Assembly (NCBI GenBank): GCA_001692895.1
Contig: KV748176.1
Location: 3,749,092 to 3,813,091, forward strand
Length of the DNA stretch: 64,000 nt
DNA from: Cenococcum geophilum 1.58
Lineage: Eukaryota; Ascomycota; Dothideomycetes; Gloniales; Gloniaceae
Direction of reading: 5' to 3'
The translations under genes and the position numbers were made by a program. This document shows positions 8,241 to 62,524 of the stretch, piece by piece (positions within the stretch are counted from its first letter, which is position 1; every line of letters begins with the position of its first letter). The notes under the pieces are model-generated. The model saw only the letters and a list, made by a program, of their open reading frames with translations. It was not told the origin of the DNA and did not search any database.

Positions 8241-11185
8241 ATGTATGCTAAGCTCATTTGCAATCCTCCGCTTGGGCAAGCAACCATTGTAACACCTCAC
8301 AGTCAATCTGTGAGTCTTTTCAAAAGCAGTTCTGCGTCCTGAGACTACATTGATTGACATAACTCAGGTCAAATTCACAGTTCTGATTGAAAGTTCTGCT
8401 TCGCCAGAAAAAACGTTGAATGTAGCTCTGTGGCATAATCACAATGATCCAAATAAATGGGAAAGTCTTGCTTTAAAAGAAATTAATAAGCCTGCAACTG
8501 TGGTATGAGAAGCCAGAATTGTTTCGGCAACTCCACTTAGTACTGACCAGCCTCAAAGCTAACCCTTCATTGTGGTCAAAATGAGAGCTTACAGCAACAA
8601 TGGTTCACAGTGGATCTCCACGGACAGTCGAGACCGAAAACACCAGTGTCTTTTACTATAACATTTCGAGCAGGGGAAGACGAACCCTGGAAATGGGCCA
8701 ATGATCACTTTTCCACCTCCGATGGCCAACTACTCTATCAAGCACTAGCTTTACAAGATCAAGACCTGACTGACTACGTAGACGGCCTCGGCCCTTATCT
8801 CGAAATTAATAAAGAGGCTAGTGAGACGCCGAATACGCTTTTATGGTCTGTCAATACTCCAGTTAATGCTGCATCTGGTGCTGTATCCGGTTACTCTGAT
8901 AGTAAACTCGGCACTCCCATTGCAGTTTCAAGGTGGTTCTCCTTAGTGCGATTGTGGAGCCCATGGTTAGCTCCGCGGCAAGGGAAAGGCCAATTTCGGC
9001 CAGACAAGGATGCTGTGATGGCGGCATTCCTACGGGATGATGGCTCTCATATGGTTGTGCTTGCCGTTAGTGGTGTTGATGATGTGCTGACCGCTCTTCA
9101 TCACGACGGACAAGGGGCCATTGTCATTAATTCACGCAATGATAGTGAGAAAGAAGGCACTGCTAAATTGATTGTTGCAGTTGCACAGACTTTTGAGGTA
9201 GCTAATGCGGCAGTCATGTACCATGCTCGGAAATTGGTCACAAAATATGAAGTAGGTTCTGGGGAGATCGAGGCTGAGATGAAAGCTATGTCTGACAATG
9301 GAATGAAACCTGCATGGTTAGAGAATTGGTATGACGGCCTAGCATATTGTACGTGGAATGGCCTGGGTCAGCATCTCACTGAGCAGAAAATATTTGATGC
9401 ACTGGACTCGCTTGAAAATAATGAAATCAATGGTAAAATCCAAAATCCGCAAACAAAATCCCATGCTAATAGAACCAGTTACAAATCTCATCATAGATGA
9501 TAACTGGCAGTCCTTAGTAAAAGCCCTATCATAGACTGACCATATTCGAATATTTGCTTATAGTCTACAGAACAATGAAGGTGCTAATCAATTTCAGCGA
9601 GGCTGGATTGAATTCGAAGCAAATAAGGAAGGCTTTCCTGGGGGTCTACAGCAGACAGTATCGGAGATCCGCAAGAAGCACAAGAATATTTCTCACATTG
9701 CCGTGTGGCATGCTCTGGTAAGTAACACACATATGTATCTCCACAGGTGCTAAGATCAGCCAGTTAGGGTACTGGGGAGGAATTGCCCCCGAAGGCAAGC
9801 TCGCCAAAAACTATAAAACGGTGTCTGTTCAGAAGAAAGATGGTGTTTCTGGAGGTAAAATGCTTGCAGTTGCCAAAGAAGACGTGCCACGATTCTACCA
9901 AGACTTCTACAGCTTCTTGAGCTCCGCAGGCATTGACTCCGTTAAGACGGATGCTCAATTCTTCCTCGACGAGCTTGAAAATGCAACTGATAGAAGAAAC
10001 TTCATCCGTACCTACCAAGACGCTTGGATTATCAACAGCCTCCGCTATTTCTCAGCAAAAGCCATATCTTGCATGTCTCAGATCCCACAAATCCTCTTCC
10101 ATTCCCAAATGCCGAGTAACAAGCCTCGCCTTCTTGTCCGCAACTCTGACGACTTCTTCCCCGAAGTTCCTGCCTCGCATCCTTGGCACATATTCTGCAA
10201 CGCTTATAACTCCCTCTTTACGCAGCACCTTAACGTGCTACCAGACTGGGACATGTTCCAGACGTCACATCCATGGGCTTCTTTCCATGCCGCTGCGCGC
10301 TGTGTTTCCGGCGGCCCTATATACATTACCGATGTTCCGGGAAAGCACAATGTTGAGCTCATCCACCAGATGACGGCTAAGACCGCACGCGGAGACACCG
10401 TGATCTTACGCCCCCATACTGTCGGTAAGACCATTGAAGCATACACTGGGTATGATGAGCACGTCTTGCTGAAAATCGGTACGTATGTCGGCATGGCACG
10501 TACCGGGACCGGTATCCTAGGCATCTTCAACGTCTCCCAGCGCAGTCTCACAGAAATGATCCGGCTTGACCAATTTCCTGGCACGGAAGAAGGCACTTAT
10601 ATTATTCGCAGCCACAACACTGGCCAGGTTAGCGAGCCTGTGAATCGGAACGACCACTTCTCTTTTGTGCAGGTGGAAATACCAATCCAAGGGTGGGAGA
10701 TCCTGTCTGCGTACCCGATGCGTACGTTCGAGCTTGAGCGCAAAGAACCTGCCGCAGGTCCCGCTTCCGTCAGTGTTTCGAACTTGGGTCTGTTGGGCAA
10801 AATGACCGGCGCCGCTGCCATAGTGAACATGGATATGTATATCGAAAAATCTTCGGGTAGACTGAGAGTTTGGACATCGCTGAAGGCACTTGGAATCTAT
10901 GGTGAGCTCAAGCCTCCGTTCTTCCTTCTTTCCATTTTCTTGCCAATGCTGAATTATATGCTTAATCTGTGGTATTCAGGCCTTTACGTTTCAGATCTAT
11001 CAGATCGTTCCTTAAAAGATGATTTCATGGCACTGCTCTTCGGACGACCCATCCCACTACACTGTGTCAAGATAAACGACCAACCGCCAAACGTGCTTGA
11101 GATTGATGTGGTGCGCGCTTGGAAGGAATCGGATTCAAAGGCTAGCTGGAGCAACGAGGTTGCAATTGAAATTGTTATACGCTAG
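8241..11185 (+). CDS. GH36 raffinose-synthase-like (Sip1 family) protein
   Basis: Seven exons: 8241-8309, 8368-8502, 8595-9432, 9479-9516, 9571-9717, 9764-10901, 10980-11185; 856 residues; introns 46-92 nt, all phases consistent. Start MYAKLICNPPLGQ matches the PPLGQ start of this fungal family. The GH36 barrel begins at YDGLAYCTWNGLGQHLT and IDDNWQ, runs through HIAVWHAL and GYWGG, and has the two catalytic aspartate motifs KTDAQ (Asp472, probable nucleophile) and RNSDDF (Asp538/539, probable acid/base). A C-terminal beta domain follows (GTGILGIFNVSQRS; LYVSDLSD). Plant relatives make or cut raffinose-series galactosides (raffinose synthase, alkaline alpha-galactosidase). The fungal substrate is not established; alpha-galactoside transfer or hydrolysis is the inference. 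No signal peptide is seen, so it should be cytosolic. The tiny 38-nt exon 4 is supported by the NLIIDDNWQSL motif it encodes. Confidence 0.94.
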
Positions 11186-26407: not shown

Positions 26408-29400
26408 CTACGTTACGTTATACTAATACCCTTAAAATAGTAAATAAACTTAAATCCGCCACAACAACTATTATAGCCCTAGTTAGGGAATAAATAACTA
26501 TAATGCAATAGTCCTTTATAGATGCCTTGGCCTAGTAACAAACTATACTAGAAGCTTAGTATTAGTAATTAATTAAAGTAATATATAAAGAACTCTATAA
26601 CGCTAAAGTACTCGCGTTAGAGACCCTAATAGTAACACCTATAAATAAAATTAAAATAACTATATATAAACCCGACCTATTAAATATAAACCCTAAATTA
26701 GTAATGGCAGCTTAACCTATACCTATAATAAACCTAATACCTACTATAAAATTTAAAAAGCTCCCTAACCCTCTAATATTTAATAGAAATTAAAATAACC
26801 TATATCCCTTTATAACTAAGCTCTATCTTAAACTTTTAACAAACTATAACTAATACCCTACTAAAGCCAGCAAGATTAGCTATAGAATATCCCGTTTAAA
26901 TAAAGACACTATATAAACTATAGACCTATTCTTCCGTAACGGCACCTTTATTAATTTTAAAATCTTTATCTCTCTACTAGAACGAATATATAATAACACC
27001 AGCTATAAATATATAGCTATTACTAAACTTAAAAACCTATAATAACGGAACCAAGACTTTACTAGCTTCTTTTTAGAATTTTTAGGCCTTATTAGTAAAC
27101 TAGATTAAAATAAAGCTGCTAGAGTTACTGCTCTCCGCCGAGCTATTTTAGATAAAATTAAAGTATAGTTAGTAGGTAGAGAACTGCTAAAGGACTTACC
27201 TAAATTTACTATAATATATTAACAAATTAATAAGGACCTTTAATATAATAAATAGACTTATTCCCTAAAGCCAACTACACCTTACGCTTAAAACTCTATA
27301 AAACTAGTATACACCCTAAAGCGCAATCCGTCTCTAAGACCTAAAAGCCCTTTATATAACCCTATAGACCTTAATGCCACCTAATTCTATATACCTTTAG
27401 GAACCAATAAATAAAGAATATAAGCCGCAAATAGAGAATGTTTTGGATATAGAAAAAAGGGATATATTTAAAGGGATTACCGAACTTACCCTTTTAAAAA
27501 GGTCCGCCGTAGCTCCTCTTAGTCCTTAAGTTATACTTATTTTATAAATTATACTTAGTTGCCACGAAGTATCTTACCTTTAGTTAACTTAGAAAATGAA
27601 TTATCCTAGGGCCAAGTCGCGCCTTAGGATAAAAAGTGGAAGAGTATAAGTGTCTAGGCTCTTTTAGCGCTAATATATAATATAACTCCCTTAATATACT
27701 CGGCAAAATTTAAATACTTAGAAAATAGAAGGAAGTATAAATCCTTATAGATAGCGGAGCTACTAGTATAGGCTTTATTAATATAAACTACGCGAAAACT
27801 TAACACTTAAATTTAAAAAAACTTAATAAGCCCTAAGGCCTATAAGGCTTTAATAGTAAGCCTTTAATATATAGCGAACTAACGCACTACGCTTTTATAA
27901 AAATGCGGATAGGCAAATACCTTAAATATATTTCCCTATTTATAACACCCTTAAAGTATTATAAGGTAATACTTAGATACGGATAGCTAAAATAATATAA
28001 CCCTTTAATTAGCTAGGTTAAAGAAATACTAAAATTCTATATAACCTACTGCTAAAGTTATTATTTAAAATACTACTTACCCTATAAACATGTATATAAC
28101 TATTGAAATTTAATATAATATGAATTACCCTTACTATAAACCTTAAACTAATATAATAAAGTTATAACTGCCAATTGCGGTAAAGAATGCGAAGATAATA
28201 TATTAAAACCTCTTAAAATTTATATAATACAAGCCGCACCCTTTTATTTATTAGTAAGAAAACGAGACTATAAGATCTTTACTATAACACTAGAAGATAT
28301 TAAAAAGGCGTTAGAACTGAAGCAATATATTAACCCCTAACCTCTTATACCTAAAGAATATTATAATCTAATTAATACATTTAAGAGATAATTTATAAAC
28401 CAACTACCCCCGTATTAAGACGAGCACAATTTTAAGATAAAATTTAAACTTAGTATAACGCTAAAGTTCGGCCCGTTATATGGTATATCGCGAGAAGAGC
28501 TACTTATAATATAATAATACCTTAAAGAGCACCTAAAGAAAGGATTTATTCGCCCTAATTAATTACTATTCGCCTTACCTATACTATTTATTAAAAAACC
28601 TAGAGGAGGCTTAAGATTCTATATTAATTATTAAGCCCTAAATATAATTACGATTTAAAACCAATATTTAATTCCTCTGCTTTAAGAAACGCTTAACTGC
28701 TTAGTAAAAGTATAATACTTTACAAAGCTTAACGTAGTTACCGCCTTTAATTAAATCCGTATTCGCGAAGGAGATAAGAAGTATACGGCTTTTCGTATAT
28801 AATAGGGACCTTTTAAATACCTAGTAATACCATTTGGCGTAAAGAGCGGTCCTAGTATATTTTAGTAATACGTTAATAATATACTTCGCGAATTTCTTAA
28901 TGTATTTATTACCGCGTATATTAATAATATCTTAATCTATTTATTTTCGCTTTTTAAGCATTAGAAGTATATCTAAATAGTTCTTAAATACCTATAAGAC
29001 GCGGGCTTATAATGCGACATTAAGAAATATAAGTTCTATACGTCCAAAGTTACATACTTAGGCCATATTATATCCCGCAATGGAATTAAAATAGACCCTA
29101 AGAAAATCGCTGTAATTATAAACTAAGAAAGTCCTAGTAGTGTATAAAACATCTAAGGATTTCTAGAATTCGCAAATTTCTACTATTAATTTATTAATTA
29201 CTTCTTAAAAATTATTTAGCTATTAGTAAACTTAATAAGAAAGAATGTAAGATTTAAATAAACTACTAAATATAAATAAGCTTTTAACAACCTAAAATAT
29301 CGTTTTATAACTACTTTAATCCTTACCTACTTTAATTCGGACCTTAAATATATTATTAAAACAGACTCGTCTAATTATATACTAGGAGGGGTGTTATTGC

Positions 29401-30818
29401 AGTACGATAAGAACGGCGAGCTACGCCTAGTAGCCTTTCTCTCCTAAAAACTTACCCCTACTAAATTAAACTATAAGATATATAATAAGGAACTACTTAC
29501 AATTATTAGATGCTTTAAATAATGGCGCCTAGAACTTAAAGGATTATTATTCCTAATATACGTATTAACGGACCATAAAAACCTATAGTACTTTATAACT
29601 ATAAAGCAATTAATACAGCGCTAAATTCGTTAGGCTAAATACCTTTTATAATTTAACTTTAAAATTATATACTAACCTAGTAAACTTAACTAGAAGCCTA
29701 ACTTATTAATATAATAATTATAGAACTTACCTATAAACGCCTCTAATAAACGGATTACAAATTAATTATAAATTCTACTGCCCCCTAAACACTTTAAGAA
29801 ACTACGCCCTATATTCCTAGATATGGAGCTTAATAGGAATAAATTAGAAATCAATAAGTGGGATATAAAAATTAATAAATTAATAGAATATAAATATAAG
29901 AATAACCCCTAGATAGTAGATATAATAAAAGCAATTTAAATAAGGAAATGGTAATATAAGGATATTACACTCGCTAAATGCAAAATCCGTAATAATCGGT
30001 TATACTATTAACAGAAAATGGTAGTCCTAAATTCCAAACCCTTACAATTTAAGATACTTAAATTTATACACGATTCCTCTATAGTAGGGCATCCTAGCTA
30101 TATAAAAACCTATAAGATTATCCAATAAGTATACTACTGGCCTATAATGTATAACTATATACGAAAATATATTTAAGTATACAGAATATGCGTATATAGG
30201 AAGACCTCTTATATAAAGAAGCAAGGAGTACTTTAACCGTTACCAATTCCAATATAAAGATAGCGAGATATCTTAATTAACTTTGTAGTTAACCTACCTA
30301 ATAGTAATAGGTTTACAAATATTATAGTAGTTATTAACTATCTTATAAAAATGCGATATATAATTCCTATAGACTTAATTAATGTAATATTAGTAGCCGA
30401 ATATTTTATTAAGTACGTCTTTAAGCTACACAGACTTCCTAATTTAATAATATCTAACTATAAAAGCTAGTTCATTTTAGACTTCTAGTAAGCCCTATAT
30501 AAACGATTAAGTATATAAATATAACTCTTAACCGTATTTTATCTAGAGATAAATAGTTAAACTAAAATTATAAACGCGATTATAGAACAATACCTATAAA
30601 TATACTACTCCTACCTATAAGACGACTGGGAGAAATAGCTACCGTTAGCTAAGTTTACTATAAATAATACGAGAAACGAATTAATAAGCGTAATGCCGTT
30701 TTACGCAACCTACGGACAAGACCCTTAACTTGGATTTAAACTATAACCTAAAATTAATATAATAGGACCTATAATTAAAAGGATTTAACTAATTAACGTG
30801 TATAACTTTACTAATTAA

Positions 30819-45300: not shown

Positions 45301-48300
45301 ACTAAGCCCGAGCTTCTACGCCGGAAGATAATTAACACTAATATTAAGAAATTCCTAAAAGGCAAACCAGGATTAACCCGTAAGAACATTTTATAACGCC
45401 TACTAAAGGAGGTTTATAAATATATTAAGCACTTCCTCCCTAAGAATATAGATAAGCTGCCCCCTTACCAACCATAGGACTATAAAATTAAGATCATCCC
45501 CGGAAACTAGGCCCTATACTATAAAAATAGACCACTCTTACCTGCTAAACTTAGGTGTGTAAACAAGTGGATTAATAAAATGCTAGATAAGGGTTTTATC
45601 TACAAATTAATCTTACTAGCTACCGTACCACTCCTCCTTACTACTAAGCCTGGCGGCGGTATATAAATCTACTATAACTACTAAGGCCTAAATATAGTTA
45701 CTATTAAGAATCGGTACCTATTACTACTAATCCGTAAGACACTTAACGCACTTTATAGTGCCAAGTACTTTATAAAACTTAATATAATTACTACGTTTAA
45801 CTAGATCCGGATTACGGAGGGCTATAAGTAGCTTATAGCATTTATTACCCGGTTTGGACTCTATAAGATACTAGTTATACTATTTAGCCTCTATAATACA
45901 CCCGCTATATTCTAGAACTATATTAACTATATTTTATATAACGCCCTTAACAACTACTATACTGCCTACCTTAATAACGTCCTTGTCTTTTCTAAAACAC
46001 GCGCCAAGTATACTAAGTATATAAATAAAGTCATCTAAAGACTCGGCAATACTAGACTTTAGATTAATATTAATAAGTCTAAGTTCTACTCTACTAAAAC
46101 AAAATACCTCGGCTTAATTATCTTAACTAATAGCATAACTATGGACCCTAAGAAGGTATAGGCCTTATAGAAATAGAAGGACCTAACGTCAATTAAAGAA
46201 CTATAACAATTTCTCGGCTTCGCGAACTTCTACTAATAATTTATCTAAGGCTACTCTGCCATCGCTACACCAATAACAAAACTCCTAAAGAAGGATATTA
46301 GATGGCTATAGGGACTAGAATAAGCTAAATCGTTTAAGGCCCTTAAGAGAGCCTTTACTTTAGCACTAGTACTAGCATACTACGACTATATAAAGAAAAA
46401 AGTGGTAGAGATAAACGTATTAAATTAGGCTTCTAGTGGAGTCCTTTCCTAGTATAGCGATGATAGTAAATTAAGACCGGTTATATTCTTCTCCGTAAAG
46501 TACTCTACGCTAAAGTATAACTATAAGATCTATAATAAAGAACTCTTAGCTATTATTAAGGCTTTAGAGAAATAGCGCCCTAAGCTATAAGGGACTAAGG
46601 AGCTATTTAAAATTATCACTAACTATAAGAACCTATAGACGTTTATAACTACTAAGTAGCTAAATTAGCGCTAAGTTTAGTAGGCAGAGTTCCTTTTACA
46701 GTTTAACTTTATAATTATATATAGACCTAGTAGTAAAGCCACGCTCCCTAACGCCCTAAGCTAGCTGCTAGGAATAAGACCTAAGGATACTAATAATAAA
46801 CACCTCCGCTACCGAGCCCAAGTCGTTATACCGCCCTAGAAAGTTAACCCTATAATCTTAGAAGAATTACTATATAAGTCCCATAACTTTAATAACGCGG
46901 AGTTTATAGCCGCTCTAGACCCTAAAATAGCCGAAAAGTCACTAAATAAGCTAATCTAGTTAGGATACTAGGAGAACAAACTCGTAAAAGATATAGCGGC
47001 GGCCCTGTAAGATTGGAAAGCTCACCATTAGCTAAAGAAGATTAGGAAATTACTCCATTGTAATAAGTTAGAATATAGTATTATTAACGGACAGATCTAC
47101 TTTCGCTAACGCCTCTTTGTCCTTAACGCCCTAGACCTCCGCCTAGAAGTTATCCACTAATCTTATAGTAGCGGCCCCGCTAGTTACCCTAGCCGGGTTA
47201 AGACCCTTAACCTCCTAAACTAAATATACTAGTAGCTAGGAATCTCCTAGTTTACGGCTACCTTTATTAAAGACTATACTCTATACTTTCGCACTAAGAC
47301 CCCCTATTCTACCCCGCCTAGTTTCCTAAAGCTATTAGAACTACCCGCTTGCCTATAAATAGATATTTTAATTAACTATATTATAACGCTGCCGGTATGC
47401 CAACGCTACGGCAAGGTATATAAACATATTCTTGTTATTATAGACTGCCTAACTAAAATGCGACACCTTATTCTAGTAACAGGACTCTTAATAGAGGAGC
47501 TAGTTAATAGCTTTATTAACAACGTGTATAAGCTCTACGGTGCACTAAGCACGATTATCTCCAATCGCGGTATATAATTTATTAGCAACTTCTAGTAATA
47601 ACTAAGTAAACGCCTTAAGACAACCTTATAACTAAGCTTAGCCTAGCACCTAGAAACGGACGGCTAAACCAAAATTATTAACGCCGCTATAAATAAGTAC
47701 CTTTATGCTTTTGTTAGCTTTATATAGGACGACTAAGTTAACTACCTACCGCTTACCAAGTTTACTATAAATAACTAAGTTAATAAGAGCACAGGCATCT
47801 CCCTATTCTTTATAAACTATAGCTTTAACCCTCGCCTTAGAATTAAGCCTGCTGGCCCCCGCCTACTAACACTATTAGCATAAGCAAAGAAGGAGTTCTT
47901 TCGCGTAGACTTTATGGCCAACCGCTTTAAGCGGATATTAACATAGCTTAAGGCCCTAGCCTAGATTTTATAGTAACGCTATAAAGACAACGCTAATACC
48001 CATAGGGATAAGAGCGCGTTATTCTATAAAGGCGATATAGTTATAGTTAGCTTAAAAAATATAAAGATAAATAGACCTAAGAAGAAATAGGACAATAAAT
48101 AGGACGGCCTGTACCCCGTACTCGCAGTATACTAAGGGGCAGTTATAGTAAACCTTCTAAACTATATCCGAGTAAACAAATCCTTCTATATATTTAAGGT
48201 CCGCCTCTAAGCTGCTAAAGAGATCCCTAGCTAAGCAAATATTAATATTATAGAGCGCCGTAATATACAAGGACGAGTAGCAGAGAGAGATAATAACGGC

Positions 48301-55339: not shown

Positions 55340-56993
55340 TATAACGCCGCGGCACTAGCGTGGCGAGGAGTCTTAGGCTCCTCGCCCTTCCTCATTCTAA
55401 TTAAATAAGCTTTATTAACCAATATCACTATAACCTACTCAAGTAGTTGTTATTAGTGAGTTACCCTATATAACTAACACTAATTAGTGGTTAAATATAT
55501 AGTTAACTATAGAGCAGCTAGGTTTTCAAATAGAAGAGACAGTCTCATATAGGGGTGCTATATACGCTTATATAAAATAGATCCCGGTAATACTATACTA
55601 CCTTAAACTTACGGAAAATTAGTAATAGAAATGTTACTAAGTACTAGGAGATACTAAGTTACGTCTATTATATAGAATAACCGCGTTTACAAAGATTTAG
55701 TTAAGTACTTTAGGTTAAAAGTATTACTAAACCTAGGGTCCTAAGTTAACGTCTAAAACACGTTAAAAAATAACCACCTTAATACCCTCTATATACCTTT
55801 ATAGACCGTAAGATTACAATTACTCCCTAATTACATATTAAATAACCCTTATTTTCCTTAATCTTTTTATTAAAACGCGTTAAACAACTACCTTAATACC
55901 CTCCGTATACCTTCGCAGATTCTATTATAGCGTTAACCTACCTAAAAAAGTATAAGAAAGACATTAACCTAAAAGTATAAAACACCGACATAACTAACCT
56001 TAAAGATGTTAATTAGTAAGACTTAAACGGATTTCTATTATACTATATAGTATACTATAAGGATAGCAAATATAACAACACTATGCTATAGTACTGTGTA
56101 AGGGAGAACTTTATTAGATGGATAAAGGGAATATAGACTCCTATAAAGAAGGATATTATATAAGACTTCTATAACTTCTTACGGGAGTATAGAGTGTTTA
56201 TATCTATAGACGGGGGTACTATTAGAGACAATATTTAAGAGTAGGTTATTAACGTAAAAAAAGAGCACAAATGGACTTAATAAGAGATTAAGCACTAACT
56301 ACGTACTATAAGGAAGCTTAACTTATAATAGAATCTAAGTAATACACCTCTAAAGGCAAATCTACCTCTACCTTTAATTCCTCTGTATCTAATTTAACCC
56401 GTAACCTTAATATTAGATACTATACCCCAATAAGAGCAGGCATAGGATCCCATTACTTTACAATTTAATAACCTTTAGACTCTACCAACTAGACCTACGT
56501 CCCTACTATAGCCTACAATGCAACTCCTACCTCCTCTATCTTAATCTTAAATCGAAGGCAGTTTAAAATTGCTTATAGAGCTTACGAAGCTCTACTTGGA
56601 TTAGAAGAAGAAGTTTAGCGGGGAATTATATAATATTCTTAATTTAAAACTATATATCTTCTATAACTATTGCTAAAAGGTAGGAATAAAGTCTAATTAA
56701 TACCATAACGCCTATTCCGTTATGCTTAAGGGCCAAGCTAGTACCTTCTATTATAATTATTTAGCAGGAAAATAATATAATTTTAACCGCATAATATATA
56801 AGTTAAAATACCACTTTAAAATAGAAGAGAATAAGTAGCAGTATATATTAGAATGGAGAGAGACTACCTTCCTAAGGATTATTACTACAAACCCAGGTAT
56901 CCCTCGGCTTAATTATCTTTAAAAGCTCTTTAATTAACTTTAGACAATTTAACGTGGTTTATCCAAATTATATTAAGAGGATTTTAGCCTACG
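55340..56993 (+). mobile_element. Copia-like fossil, left part
   Basis: From about 56550 the plus strand reads as the gag of fungal Copia-type elements (VMLKGQASTFYYNYLAGK, EWRETTFLRIITTNPG, then LSKLY near the right edge), in many pieces. The start, about 55340, may be an LTR beginning near taacgccgcggcac with the strong hairpin at 55362-55386; I could not prove the LTR because its partner is not in the window. Interrupted at 56993 by the non-coding LTR element. Confidence 0.65.
55362..55386. repeat. GC-rich hairpin, 9-bp arms
   Basis: Arms ggcgaggag (55362-55370) and ctcctcgcc (55378-55386), loop tcttagg. It sits in a short unmutated patch and may mark the start of a Copia-type LTR. Confidence 0.85.
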
Positions 56994-57177
56994 TGTCACA
57001 GCGACTCAGTCAATCGAGGCACGAGCGCCGTAAAGAACGTATGCAAGCCTGTATAATTGGAATTTCTATGGACCCGGATATCAAGATGAGGAGCAGAAGG
57101 TGGAAAAGGACACGTCTATATACATATGCCAAGGCTCAAGCGAGCCCCCTAACTAGATCCGTTACGGTGCTGTAACA
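56994..57177 (+). repeat. 5' LTR of non-coding LTR element
   Basis: 184 bp with TG...CA ends; pairs with 61509-61692 at most positions. Followed by ttaccctccc and a palindromic aagcttgccctcaagctt. Confidence 0.94.
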
Positions 57178-57260
57178 TTACCCTCCCTTTCAAAAAAGCT
57201 TGCCCTCAAGCTTTATCCTTAGGTGCTTGTCTTCTACCTCTTATACAGTTGTAGTTGTTT

Positions 57261-57309
57261 GCTGCAGGTAGGGCAGCAGTAGTCAATGAGATGCTGCAGG
57301 CAGAGCAGC
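57261..57309. repeat. Hairpin units, left of the hAT insertion
   Basis: Two units: 57261-57277 (gctgc, loop aggtagg, gcagc) and 57293-57309 (gctgc, loop aggcaga, gcagc). A third starting at 57326 (gctgtagg) was cut by the hAT insertion. They belong to the same series as 60447-60918. Confidence 0.85.
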
Positions 57310-57333
57310 GAGTGTCAGTTGGAATGCTGTAGG

Positions 57334-60300
57334 CAGACTTGCTAATAAGCAAGCAAGCAAGCAAAACACCCCTCTGCTTGCTTGATTGCCCGATTTAGAA
57401 GTCCTTTGCTTACTTACTTACTTATTAGCCTCAAATCACGTCTGCTTACTTACTTACTTATTTATTACTTGCCAAGACAGTCTAGAATTTAAAGTTAAGG
57501 TTCTATAGAAAATCCGCTATGGCTTCGCCCCCTAGTAGTATATTGCCCACTAAGCCCGTCTACTATTAATTAATTGTAGTATAAGCTCGTTTGCACTATT
57601 TGGAGGCAGTTTATAAGGTAGATGCGGTAAAGGCAGCGCGTATATTGTGATCTTAGTATAGTATAGAGGATTGGGAGGTAGTAGAGGAAGTAGGTATAGC
57701 AGCTGCTCCTTTATCAGCTATTAGCTTTGTATAAATTAATAGACTTACTACCTTTTCTAGCGGCCTTCTTATAGCCTATCTTCTTCCAAGAACGCGTGCA
57801 TTATAGAGCAGCAATTATTATTAGTTGTAACCTAGATTAACGAGGCTCTAATAGATTACCAGCTTTACTAAATCCTCGCTTACAATCTACGCTTATAGCT
57901 AGTATAGTTAGTATATTAAAGGCGAACTAGGCGAGGTATAGAAATTTAATTTACATCTACTACTAGTACCTAATTAGATCCTGGGCTAACGGGTGTTCCT
58001 TTAGTAAAGGATTAAGCAACTTCCACCGTGTATACTTATCCTTATAAGCTATCTGGCTTGGTATTAAGGTACTAGAGTAGGCATTAATATGGCTTTCACG
58101 ACCGGCGGAGGCTCGCACGCGCTTTAGAGGCGGTGCCTCTAGTTCTACTAATAAAGGTAGCGGATAATCTTTATACTAAAGCTAGAGAGTTTAAAAGGCA
58201 GCGTTGCCGCTAATAATCCAATCGGGCCTATCCTTCTACGTGTTTTAGCAAAAGCGCTTAAAATAAGGATATAGAAGGACTGCTGCGTAATATACTGGAG
58301 TATTATTAAGCTTAAGGTAATAGTCGTTTAGCTTTACCCAGGCTGCGTTTATATTAATTATAAAATAATCCTCTATAGCTTCCTAATTCGGATAGTCCTC
58401 TATTATAGCTTTAGAAACGTGATCCTTCTTTTCTTTAAAGACTCTAAGCAGCTAATTAAACGTAGGAATGACCTCCTAAATCGCGCCGTGTTTACCAGCC
58501 TTGCCTCTACCTTCTACTAAGCTCATAGCTTCTTTAAGAGGGCTAAGAATCTCCATATATTTATTAATAATTAACTAATTGTATACGTTTAAGCCGCCAA
58601 CGGCGATATAGCGGCGAGGCTTAGGCACCTTCTTGCCTTTAGATCTGAGGGAGGCCGTTTCCTTTTTGTACTTTATAATCTAATACTAGGCAAACGAATT
58701 AAGAGGCGCTTAGAGCTTAGTAGCTCGTTTAAAGGCAACGTAGTAGCTATTCTAGCGGGTCTTAACGGGCTTAATAAGCTGCTTAATTCGGAAGCCGTTC
58801 TGCGGAGGCATATTCTCGTTAACTTAATATTACTCGAATAGCTGCACAAGCTAAGGCGTGTTAATTAAATTAATAAGGTCACAAAGTGTTCCAAGCGGTC
58901 CTTCCTTCCGCCACTGCTTTAGGAACTCTTTTTCTTCTAGTATATTCGCATCCTCGTTTTTAAAAGCTTCTTTATCCTTTCTAAATATAAGCTACTAAGC
59001 AACTAGATTTAGGATATAGCAAGCACAGCGCGCGCACCTATAGGCCTTGTTAAAGCCGAATTTAACTGCCAGATAATCTAAATAAGTATTATTTATACAG
59101 GCGTTATTAGTAACAAAGTAGCCAAGCCGCTCCTTTATAATCTTAAACGTATTAAGGACGTTACTAATAACTTCCGCGTAGTTAATTCCTAAGTGCTAGC
59201 TAAGCTGCGCGGGCAGAGTGAGCATATAGTCCACTATACGGCCTTCCTTATTAAGGTAATGTGTATACACGCCAGTAAGAGCAAGTTTGCCGTTAGGAGT
59301 CTACTAGCCATTAAAGGATATATATAGGAGTAATCTAGCGGCAGCGAGAGCCTTAGTAATAGAGGGGAGGTATACTTCGTAGTTGGCTAGTATATAGTCT
59401 ACCACTAATTAATAATTAAGCCAGAGTACGCGCTCAGCCTTAGGATTTGCAATTTGTATTATATAGCGGAAAGATAGGGTTTTAAACTCTCGTAGTAGGT
59501 GGTTGTTTTTAGTAAGCTAATTAATAGCTGCTTGCCTAAATATAGATGCATTAAAGCCGTCGATAATTGTGTTAGCAGCTTCTTAAGAAACGTATTAACC
59601 TAAAGCCTAGAGATACTTAAGAACAGTTTACCCACGCTTCTTCAATATAATCTTTCCGTTTTTATTGTATCCGTAGCCGGGAGTATTTTTAGTAAGATGC
59701 GTTTGAGCAGCAGTATTAGCATTTAATATATTATAACAACCAAGGCCTCCGCAGTTAATAATTTTATATTAGTAGTAGTACTTACAAATAAAAATAATTT
59801 TCTCCAGCTTTACCCGACTTTAGCACCTATACCCGTATTTATAGATAAAGCTAGGCGTCCGCTTTAAGCTATAATGAGGCTTTTAAAGATCTAATAGTCG
59901 TTTCCAGTTAATGCCGTCGTAATTGTTAACATTATTGTCATCTATAAGCTCGTCAGGTGCGGCGACTTCTAACGGTGGAATTATAGGGGTTAGTAGGTTT
60001 TCTGCGGCTATCGCGCTCACGTTCGCGTCGGTAAGGTCTTACGTTATAGCCATAGCAGCGGCTAAGCGGGTTCTATCGAATTGGTGGAGTTAGTGGTGGA
60101 TAAAGATAGGAAGGCATTTATTGTTTACTATGAGCTACATAAGACTTTTAGTCGGCGCGGAAAAACGTTTTAAATAGGCTTAGCGATTGCCTAAAAGGGC
60201 TTATTTGCACTATTTGCATTACTTTAGACACCGGAAATTAACCCCAAAAACACCAAAGGTCTATTACCAACTACCGCTACTACTAAGTTAACTATATACA

Positions 60301-60446
60301 AGCAATTAACAAGCAAGCAAGCAAGTAAGGCCTTCCTTTGCTTGCTTAATTGCCCAAATAAGGTCTTCTTGCTTGCTTGCTTGCTTCCTGCCAAGACAAG
60401 CAAGCAAGCAAGCAAGCAGGGGTTTGCTTGCTTATTAGCAAGTCTG
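57334..60446 (-). mobile_element. hAT DNA transposon
   Basis: 3.1 kb with terminal inverted repeats beginning cagacttgctaataagcaag at both ends (about 23 bp perfect) and an 8-bp target duplication, gctgtagg (57326-57333) and gctgcagg (60447-60454), which differ only by one C/T. Just inside both ends are arrays of AAGC/CTTG units, subterminal repeats of the kind hAT transposases bind. The interior carries a degraded hAT transposase on the minus strand. It inserted inside one hairpin unit of the LTR element. Inner sequence shows heavy RIP while the ends do not. Confidence 0.95.
57570..60053 (-). pseudogene. hAT transposase, RIP-damaged
   Basis: From Met at 60053 (MAITYDLTDANVSAIAAENL) the frame stays recognisable to about 57570 with stops scattered along it, mainly at former Trp and Gln codons. 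Landmarks: QTHLTKNTPGYGY region, a DDE-type catalytic stretch with ISFNG.QTPNGKLALTGVY (the usual SxDGWT motif with Asp now Asn), a YFVTNNACINN segment (normally TDNASNN), CARCACYILNLVA (RCxxHxLNLxA-like) and PHYSLKRTPSFIYKYG near the N-terminus. A hATC dimerisation region is expected left of 57950 but is hard to see. No longer functional as read. Confidence 0.85.
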
Positions 60447-60918
60447 GCTGCAGGCAGAGCAGCGAGGGTCGATCGTAGTGCTGCGGGAGTAGCAGCAGAT
60501 GTCGGTTGTAGTACTGCAGGCAGGAGCAGTAGTGGTCGAATTAAGGTTTAGCTGCAGGCAGGAGCAGCAGATGTCCATTTGGGTAGTAGTACGGTACTAG
60601 CGGCGGTAACGATAGTGGTCGAGCACAGAGCTCGTCTATCGGTTGTCATGTGATAGCAGGTCGAACGTAGAGCTCGGGCTATCGATTGGTTGAGTGATCG
60701 TAGGCGTAGAGGCACGATCATTGTCTCGTCGACTGTGGCAGGGCAGTACAGTCGTTTGTTGTAGCAGTACGATGCAAGCGGAAGTCGTGGATCGCAGGCG
60801 TAACGGCACGATCGTACGGTCAGAAGACTGTAGGCGTATCGGCACAGTTGTAGTCAGGTCGTAGTAGCAGGCGTATTGGCGCTACTGTTGTCTAGATCGT
60901 ATGCATCTCGGCACGATC
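60447..60918. repeat. Array of hairpins with conserved loops and changing arms
   Basis: Nine units here. Short-loop type: 60447-60463, 60480-60496 and 60551-60568 (arms gctgc/gcagc) and 60513-60530 (arms actgc/gcagt), loops aggcagga-like. Long-loop type: 60696-60719 (gatcgt/acgatc), 60790-60813 (gatcg/cgatc plus one mismatch), 60827-60848 (actgt/acagt), 60863-60886 (agtagc/gctact), 60895-60918 (gatcgt/acgatc), with 12-nt loops of form aggcgtaNNggc except the last (atgcatctcggc). Loop sequence is kept while both arms change together, so pairing itself appears conserved. Confidence 0.85.
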
Positions 60919-61508
60919 GGTAGTCAATAGCAGAGTGATGCCAGCGTCGGTAGTCCTAGTGATTTCGTTCCTCAAAGCTCGTATTACTCAGTATCAGTCG
61001 GGGTCGTTCATCGCAGCCAGTGCANAGCACTAGTCTCAGTATCAACCGATTTCGTTCCTCACAGTATACGTGGCTTAGTGTCTGTCAAAAAGGACTATTT
61101 AGGTAGCAGTACGGTGCAAGCGTCCGTAGACGTACGGTCGGTCGGTCGGTAGGTAGGTAGACATACGCGTTCGGTTGACAGATACACGCGTCGTCATAGG
61201 ACCTTTTGTCGTTGTCGATCGAGTTCGTACGGTCGGAAAGAGGTTACTGTCTGGCACGTGCTTCCCCATAGCATAGGCGGCCGTTTAGTAGAGAATTGAA
61301 ATAAAAACAAAAAGAAACATGAGGGTGCCTATACGGTGTAGGGACTAAGCTTCTCGCAACCCAGCCACCATAGGACTTTAGTCCTTGCTTTGTTATAGAA
61401 GTGTGCATCTCCTTCCTTTGCCTGCGTGTAGGGCTCCGTCCACCCGTCCACTACAGGACTTAACCTGGATTACAATAGCCTGCGTCTAACTGAGGGATCT
61501 TGATATAA
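60919..61508. other. Non-coding interior of LTR element, low RIP
   Basis: Near-balanced composition with short repeats: a gatttcgttcctca unit twice, a gtagcagtacggtgcaagcg unit at 61103 that repeats 60761-60780, a small hairpin ccgta/tacgg (61124-61137) and a GGTC/GGTA microsatellite (about 61138-61160). One N at 61025. The last 200 bp before the LTR are unique sequence. No gene seen. Confidence 0.7.
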
Positions 61509-61692
61509 TGTCACAGCGACTCAGTTAATTAAGGCACGAGCGCCGTAAAGAACGTATGCAAGCCTGTATAATTGGAATGTCTATGGACCCGGATATCAAG
61601 ATAAGGAGTAGAAGGTGGAAAAGCACACGTCTATATACATATGCCAAGGCTTAAGCGAGCCCCCTGACTAGATCCGTTACGGTGCCGTAACA
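61509..61692 (+). repeat. 3' LTR of non-coding LTR element
   Basis: Partner of 56994-57177, same length, followed by the CTACG target duplication. No clear polypurine tract precedes it (gggatcttgatataa). Confidence 0.94.
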
Positions 61693-62524
61693 CTACGTAA
61701 TTAAGTTATTAGTGTATGCTAAGGCGTTAAAGAATGTAACCTTACTCTCTTTAATCCTGTAAATACTTATAAAGGAGTATATACTTAATTAAGATCTTCT
61801 ATTAGCACCGCTCTACGCTCTTAAGAAGTATAGCAATTTAACGCCTAACTCTAACCTACTTTAATTAACCTACCTAACTAATATAATTATAACTAGACTA
61901 ATCGAATATATAGTAGCCGTGGTAGGTAATATAGTAGAGGGTATAATTAACAACTATAAGGCAAAGGTAGAGGTCCTTGTAGAGGTTTATTTTAAAGTAA
62001 TTACTAAAAGAAGTGCTACGTTTGCGAGAAACCGAATTGCTAGTTAACTAGGCATTTTCTTAATAAACGAAAGGAGGTATATAATAAGTTTCGCCAGAGT
62101 ATAAGAAACGTTAAAAATTATAAGGCTACTATGGCCTACTTTTAAAGCTTCCTAATTTAATATAAAGGCGTAAAAGATCTTAAAGGTAAGGTTAATAAGG
62201 CTAAACGGCTCCTTATAGATATAGAAATTAAGGACTATTTACTTAACTAATACTTTACTAAGTATAGTGAGGTAGATGGCATATAAACTGTTACTATTCT
62301 TAATAACTAATCTACGCTCCATTCTATTACGAAGTTAGATATTTTTAATAAGCTAAAGGAGAGCTCCGCGTTCTCCTTTAATAATAAATACTTAGCGAAT
62401 ATCTTCTATAGTATTATACCAGATACTATAGCCGCAGGGGTACCTATAGTAGGAGAACCTTAAGTTCGAGCCCTTTAGTAGCTTAATAACTCTGTTTAAA
62501 TTAACCATTTAACGGCAGGCTAAT
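61693..62524 (+). mobile_element. Copia-like fossil, right part
   Basis: Resumes the gag region split at 56993. A zinc-knuckle segment KKCYVCEKPNC with a following TRH is readable near 62010-62060, and a KRKEVYNKFRQ segment after it, both typical of fungal Copia gag. A protease-like stretch (IIPDTIAAGVPIVGEP near 62410-62460) follows. Cut by the next LTR at 62525. Broken in many places by RIP-type change. Confidence 0.75.

Follow-up and report, generated by a model that had tools for sequence, protein, structure and literature searches.

We found that the window (the whole 64,000-nucleotide stretch of Cenococcum geophilum 1.58 DNA analysed) contains a non-coding element of roughly 1.5 kb, delimited by two 184-bp direct repeats which start with TG, end with CA and are both bordered on the outside by CTACG (Table 1). 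Read in sense, it opens with an LTR and a primer binding site (PBS), followed by a leader of about 570 nt; the hairpins come next, class 2 before class 3 and class 1, and a further stretch of about 70 nt leads to the polypurine tract (PPT) and the second LTR. Since the PPT and the PBS share a strand with the TATA box, the sense strand of the element is, as judged by these three signals, the minus strand. The minus-strand PPT lies directly before one of the LTRs and reads GAAGGGGGGGGTAA or AAAGGGGGGGGTAA in many copies, while the TATA offset, -35 in the window copy, ranges from -35 to -44 in other copies with a match in place. The element is interrupted by a hAT-type DNA transposon, the ends of which match at 19 of the first 20 bases when measured from 57338/60442; its minus-strand read-through gives a Dimer_Tnp_hAT match (E=2.8e-9) in one of three frames. 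This insertion separates the two hairpin blocks of the window, which are adjacent in copies without it.

Table 1. Features of the hairpin-bearing LTR element and of its nested insertion (window coordinates)
Feature	Position	Strand	Description
Target duplication, 5 bp	61693-61697 and 56989-56993		CTACG; outer flanks of the LTRs
5' LTR in sense	61509..61692	minus	TG...CA; about 95% identical direct repeat of 56994-57177
TATA box	61633..61638	minus	TATATA; about 35 nt upstream of the primer segment
Putative RNA 5' end and self-primer	61593..61602	minus	LTR segment ATCTTGATAT; complementarity to the PBS
Primer binding site	61497..61506	minus	ATATCAAGAT; 2 nt past the LTR; complementary to LTR segment ATCTTGATAT
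Class-2 hairpin block	60690..60929	minus	sense: stem - GC CNNUAC GC CU - stem
Class-2 units	60695-60720, 60790-60813, 60826-60849, 60863-60886, 60895-60918	minus	last with variant loop
Further hairpin in class-2 block	60730-60754	minus	different loop
Class-3 hairpins, two	60610-60641, 60652-60683	minus	outer stem - CGAGC-UCUAC/UCUGU-GUUCG/GCUCG inner stem - outer stem
Class-1 hairpins	60447-60463, 60479-60497, 60512-60531, 60551-60568 (within 60447..60568)	minus	sense loops UCUGCCU, UACUCCC, UCCUGCCU, UCCUGCCU
Duplication around hAT, 8 bp	57326-57333, 60447-60454		GCTGTAGG/GCTGCAGG; one C/T difference
Nested hAT-type DNA transposon	57334..60446	minus	in a hairpin unit; TIR CAGACTTGCTAATAAGC; ends and flanks read by eye
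Two further class-1 hairpins	57260..57309	minus	same array, other side of the nested insertion
Polypurine tract	57178..57192	minus	sense GAAAGGGAGGGTAA; directly before 3' LTR
3' LTR in sense	56994..57177	minus	direct-repeat partner of 61509-61692

The genome (177 Mb in 162 contigs) was searched for further copies; a first look gave 275 candidates, of which 40 were scored and fetched as array copies. An LTR pair was present in 31 of them, and a script tolerating boundary shifts of up to 4 nt called a 5-bp duplication in 17 of these 31, as well as in the window copy. Among the 14 copies in which it was not called, the pair of L051 is another repeat and that of L031 belongs to an interrupted LTR. 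Of the 40 copies, 33 have a recognisable PBS and seven do not. A 10-nt complement between LTR and PBS (G-U allowed) occurs in 28 of the 33 PBS-bearing copies, the other five showing 7-8 nt, not all in place. In three copies (L033, L035 and L045) primer and PBS have changed as a pair, to AGCTTAATAT/ATATTAAGCT, a covariation that sets subfamilies apart. In turn, the 4.7-kb family of related elements described below combines AGCTTAGTAT with ATACTAAGCT (L058; in L057 the LTR bounds drawn by the script overran the PBS and gave no match like that of L058), and the apparently autonomous element L062 combines AGCTTTAGAT with ATCTAAAGCT. The matching pairs are thus four in number: two in the short family, one in L058 and one in L062.

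In Tf1, the first 11 bases of the RNA are complementary to the PBS and form the self-primer (PMC7175516, in part). The complementarity between LTR and PBS and its covariation are what self-priming of this type predicts, the putative RNA 5' end being placed here by the position of the TATA box, and such a compensatory primer/PBS series supports self-priming from sequence alone. Compared with the 11-base self-primer of Tf1 and sushi-type Ty3 elements (PMC7175516, in part), the segment found here is 10 nt long and has compensatory variants; moreover, the window element differs from these in carrying neither gag nor pol, and its priming is predicted. Thus it shares with the Tf1/sushi group the complementarity of the putative RNA 5' end to the PBS, but not an own chromovirus-type polymerase, and would work like a self-priming element while being at most a non-autonomous derivative.

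Inside the LTR bounds, tblastn with the L062 proteins returned no Gag/Pol match in any of the 40 copies or in L057 and L058, matches being confined to the flanks. When the L062 proteins and four copia-type ORFs were compared with L057-L060 and L067-L072 (the copia ORFs with these loci, not with the 40 short copies), Gag/Pol similarity was likewise seen only outside the LTR bounds or, for L059, outside the direct repeats. The original prediction of a non-coding LTR element is thereby borne out by the LTR pair, the PBS and the PPT and by the lack of Gag/Pol inside; together with the target duplication, these are the features of a non-autonomous LTR retrotransposon of the TRIM/LARD kind, and the conserved RNA secondary structure of that kind is supported here by stem covariation. 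L010-L015 appear to be solo LTRs of the short family with 5-bp duplications; they were considered as a helper with the same LTR and rejected, given this solo-LTR look and no array within the 1.5 kb fetched on each side.

Counting Watson-Crick stems of 5 bp and longer with loops of 3-13 nt, we found 12 hairpins without overlap in 60447-60918. Dinucleotide-preserving shuffles average 2.72 and never exceed 7, so that none of 1000 reached 12. For stems of at least 6 bp the count is 6 against a shuffle mean of 0.74 (0/1000), and the excess is absent from the adjoining 60931-61500 (570 bp; 3 against a mean of 3.95). Nine hairpins and an outlying pair at 57261-57309 had been predicted; hairpins do lie at these places, the array count is 12, and the pair (57260-57278 and 57293-57309) is present in a 153-bp stretch which is not significant on its own (3 against a mean of 1.38, reached by 112 of 1000 shuffles). 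The class-2 unit at 60790-60813 is outside the 12, its closing pair being U.G in sense.

Class-2 units are folded by the folding program into a 6-bp stem with a 2-nt 3' bulge, two inner pairs and a 6-nt loop, and the covariance model built from them matches the window at five places (60695, 60789, 60825, 60862 and 60894), all on the minus strand. The class-3 loops are UCUGU and UCUAC. Class-1 units consist of a stem, a YNYGCCY-like loop of 7 or 8 nt and the returning stem, and in the short family GAC precedes most of the listed ones by a few bases. Upstream of units from ten other loci, GAC was found within 9 nt in 23 of 64 cases, compared with 25 of 192 control windows. In units picked by their loop, two columns of the loop do not vary and six are conserved at 90% or more, figures which this choice inflates. 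A fourth repeated motif, TAGCAGTACGGTGCAAGCG-like, occurs in four copies at 60584, 60762, 60928 and 61104, and could represent a further class of small hairpins, its arms being GCA/TGC and GTA/TAC.

The fold of the whole array has a z-score of -4.61 on the sense and -1.97 on the other strand, and 150-nt windows show no consistent strand preference. Rfam covariance models gave nine matches to the window at E<=1, all below the gathering threshold: eight miRNA models in an end of the nested hAT and one lncRNA model outside the element. No Rfam match at E<=0.1 was found in L018, L058, L071 and L068, and no hammerhead ribozyme, the hallmark of retrozymes, was matched in these four loci or in the window. 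The class-3 pattern had no matches in a viral and none in a prokaryote contig collection.

Conserved loops on switching arms, as originally predicted, are a property of the paralogous units of the array. We aligned eight class-2 units, namely those of the five array positions of the window (two of these rows carrying the letters of the commonest copy instead of those of the window) and three alternative units from other copies. Six of nine pairs have changed on both sides and 87.5% of cells are paired; the covariation score is 0.552 against a shuffle mean of 0.235 (0/500) and at most 0.190 with the partners slid. Pair types are no more numerous than in shuffles (387/500). A second set, picked by loop regardless of pairing, comprises 64 distinct units from ten other loci (68 loop matches before deduplication). 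Here 83.0% of cells are paired, against 72.7 in shuffles (0/500), and the score is 0.377 against 0.188 (0/500); pairs changed on both sides (215/500) and pair types (150/500) are not above shuffles. Owing to relatedness among the units, and to some loci being members of a single family, these shuffle counts are not to be read as probabilities. Among the 100 loop matches listed of 1078 in the genome, 66 pair at five or six of six positions, compared with 30.5 (maximum 40) when the right arms are shuffled.

RIP-type C-to-T/G-to-A mutation leaves the purine/pyrimidine class of a base unchanged, and since it cannot alter this class, the test was redone in the purine/pyrimidine alphabet. Columns 3-24 are complementary in 59 of the 64 units (46.4 shuffled) and columns 5-22 in 61 (43.8 shuffled), neither value being reached in 2000 shuffles. 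The outermost pair gives no signal (47 against 44.3) and columns 4-23 give little (62 against 60.1, 80/2000); the last two pairs hardly vary. Complementarity is thus kept across units beyond chance, RIP-blind transversion pairs included, which points to selection on a folded form, as originally suggested. Covariation blind to RIP in this way could be used to part structure from mutation noise in other RIP-affected genomes. The sense strand shows no bias for G.U (24) over A.C (35), which RIP noise may hide; for want of such a bias, the sequence data do not by themselves tell RNA from DNA. The structure of the array is well supported; its function we infer.

The clear covariation lies between array units and between element families; within a single array position, the differences are of another kind. 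Each of ten array positions has one main arm pair (18-40 of the 40 copies align there gap-free), and departures from it are mostly C-to-T/G-to-A, many of them one-sided and some two-sided, with few transversions (e.g., G-A instead of G-C at 60551 in 5 of 40 copies). At the second pair of the 60695 unit, 11 of 32 copies have G-C, 10 have A-U and 11 are changed on one side; RIP on both arms can give such two-sided changes. Some departures are misaligned or replaced units, and the latter is what L043 and L046 look like near 60895, where both have a different, paired unit (GACTAT/ATAGTC). Copies with unpaired arms, named beforehand as grounds for rejecting the structure, do occur, mostly through C-to-T/G-to-A decay; because such decay is expected of dead copies, they do not refute the structure of the source. 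In the 4.7-kb family, transitions account for 461 of the 463 differences tallied between L057 and L058. With this extreme RIP-like signature, the two copies suggest that recent amplification was faithful and that decay followed.

Transversions per site were compared between subfamilies A, B and C (10, 3 and 5 copies, respectively) in seven regions, given in the order LTR, leader a, leader b, leader c (array side), class 2, class 3 and class 1. The values are 0.271, 0.160, 0.041, 0.024, 0.009, 0.008 and 0.032 for A and B; 0.046, 0.103, 0.051, 0.024, 0.014, 0.009 and 0.019 for A and C; and 0.270, 0.087, 0.058, 0.016, 0.003, 0.017 and 0.043 for B and C. The class-2 and class-3 blocks are among the slowest-changing parts of the element, to which recombination could contribute. 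Between A and C, the lead of the LTR over class 2 is only about threefold. For class 1, no clear slowing relative to the adjacent leader is seen, and in A-B and B-C there is none. Within the array, neither arms (0.000-0.014) nor loops (0.017-0.024) exceed the spacers (0.024-0.025), the difference being small, and part of the low array divergence could come from recent exchange or recombination between subfamilies.

Genome-wide, the exact loop pattern has 1078 occurrences and its reversed control 77. We found the array in at least four LTR backbones without Gag/Pol, in one orientation per locus: the short family with the window element; the 4.7-kb family, with related LTRs (L057, L058 and L060); elements with TGTCGGAA...TTCCGACA LTRs, represented by L071 (G000:C11:5000-8500) and L067; and L068/L070/L072, with yet other LTRs. 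The L071 insertion, flanked by AGTAT duplications, seems to be recent, since its LTRs are 99.0% identical. L069 has only the first part of the LTR in common with the L071 family and differs in its ends, whereas L059 reads as a composite with the module inside long direct repeats. Class-3-like stretches are found in L067, L068, L070, L071 and L072, and class-1 units in all of L067-L072 except L069; because of these similarities we take the arrays to be homologous.

A covariance model from the eight units has 59 matches at E<0.01 over 17 sources (L061 being outside these), five of them in the window, where they are partly the model's own input, and 54 in ten array loci; all 59 lie on one strand per source. 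Where the PPT of a family is readable, hairpin orientation agrees with the element's sense strand. No match at E<0.01 was returned by the six loci in which Pol frames are long and open, L062 being one of them; a single match stands at E=0.085. In L071/L069 and L068 the LTR ends are different (TGTCGG...), and a clear self-primer is missing. The assignment of these elements to Ty1/copia was tried and rejected: of four loci with long copia-type ORFs, three have an LTR pair, each with another PBS (gttatgagc), and neither the L071 LTR nor the L071/L068 stretches had a match in any of the four. Among the best 40 of 530 candidates for L071-type LTRs there are 14 pairs spaced 1.4-2.6 kb, and no autonomous partner of L071. 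The long family (L057, L058 and L060) has no ORF longer than 126 aa, a flat codon-phase pattern and no Gag/Pol match inside; as nearly all its tallied differences are transitions, frame analysis cannot decide on its coding status.

L062 (G000:C77:682000-689500) is a Ty3 chromovirus whose LTRs are 99.1% identical and start with TGTTACGGCACTG; it has a 10-nt self-primer of its own sequence and long open frames. Its domains are RT, RNase H, integrase, SH3_Tf2-1 and chromo, along with a zinc knuckle that narrowly misses the curated cut-off. The short element begins its LTR with the same 13 bases and also matches L062 in the U5 half (74%) and around the PPT (90% over 50 nt), which makes L062 a relative and a candidate partner. 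Neither sequence comparison nor the covariance model at E<0.01 revealed such a hairpin in L062, and the idea that the array copies a signal of this autonomous relative was rejected. L063 (G000:C77:754000-761500) has one class-1-like match; its first ~700 bases consist of tandem AGAGCTTCGTGTAGAGC-like repeats beside a Ty3 element with long open frames.

We tentatively propose, giving it somewhat less than an even chance, that the array is a multivalent cis-acting protein-binding RNA module for the capture of a protein-less RNA, most likely by packaging into the Gag particles of another element. In this RIP-affected filamentous fungus, the element RNA would be transcribed from the minus strand and primed by its own 5' end, as in Tf1-type elements, and would presumably be mobilised by a chromovirus-type Ty3 element. 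The array, presenting a constant loop or bulge on interchangeable co-varying stems, would bind the protein that lets this RNA be captured, and may have been passed between several LTR families by recombination or template switching. In its widest form, the proposal makes the array an exchangeable RNA 'passport' by which protein-less LTR families gain access to the particles of others or to host machinery, which we hold to be possible and on the doubtful side.

Since L062 has no such hairpin, the array would not simply be a copy of that element's own packaging signal, and one Gag for all carriers is not obvious, as L071/L069 and L068 differ in their LTR ends and have no clear self-primer. These points, and the missing G.U bias, leave room for roles at the level of host proteins or of DNA. 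Binding of a host RNA-binding protein instead of Gag, for nuclear export, stability, or evasion of or entry into RNA silencing, would suit a module that is the same in LTR families with different ends and no common priming mode, and that gives no match at E<0.01 in L062, the chromovirus, or in five further loci whose Pol frames are long and open; yet Rfam has no matching family and no host RNA with the motif was identified (none having been specifically sought), and we consider this rather unlikely. The array might also be passive, a spacer giving the RNA a packable length and compactness and keeping its structure in general only, in line with the widely varying lengths of the array-bearing families (1.4-2.6 kb and 4.7 kb). 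However, the conservation of the loop, even if inflated by loop-based picking, and its abundance over the reversed control exceed what compaction requires, and make this quite unlikely.

Action at the DNA level, with cruciforms or single-stranded cDNA hairpins guiding strand transfer, recombination or unit turnover, fits the lack of a sense-strand G.U excess and the gain, loss and replacement of units among copies. It is distinctly unlikely in our estimate, because a pure DNA palindrome needs neither the strand-asymmetric loops and bulges, turned one way per locus in every model match at E<0.01, nor the enriched sequence beside the stem (GAC). A copying mechanism that remakes the arms, akin to fold-back priming, had been offered originally as an alternative to selection and would render the covariation functionless. 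Arms which differ between units and still pair are what it would produce, but from copy to copy each position keeps its arm, the departures being mainly decay of the RIP-like type and some replaced units, and the almost exclusive transitions between the two long-family copies leave no remaking in that recent amplification; we regard it as highly improbable. The exchangeable 'passport', if true, would be a modular multivalent cis-acting signal set by loop and bulge, with stems free to co-vary, observed in dozens of elements and, from the 1078 loop matches, probably present in hundreds genome-wide.

To our knowledge, how protein-less LTR elements come to be copied by others is largely open. LARD and TRIM elements are non-coding, presumed to be trans-mobilised and described as specifying well-conserved RNA secondary structures (PMC7215508, in part), and the plant members, including Cassandra, resemble the window element in all three respects. 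The part of that source considered here does not mention a repeated loop-conserved unit (PMC7215508), in contrast to the tandem small modular hairpins seen here across several fungal LTR families. Retrozymes, which are non-autonomous plant retrotransposons with structured RNA (PMC4918200, in part), are like the window element in both properties and differ from it in the hammerhead, for which it has no match. Hammerhead ribozymes are what retrozymes carry. MS2/PP7-like coat-protein hairpins and retroviral packaging stem-loops combine a bulged stem, a conserved loop and free stem sequence with protein binding; the array resembles them in shape only, and no homology is claimed. Our literature search, with most subscription papers outside its scope, retrieved no hairpin-array LTR element and no stem-covarying, loop-conserved unit across LTR families. 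The original statement that no LTR element with such an array is described is thus uncontradicted, with the qualification that TRIM/LARD elements with conserved RNA structure are (PMC7215508, in part). What seems to set the array apart within the known TRIM/LARD kind is the tandem loop-conserved, stem-covarying unit common to several LTR families. As a natural set of co-varying hairpins, several per element and in several families, it allows the recognised letters to be read directly.

Elsewhere in the window, 28404-30251 and 45457-47346 show Ty3 polymerase similarity (34% and 30% identity to the L062 Pol), and 9821-11185 is a host gene (PF05691 in relatives) with a best match 97% identical.
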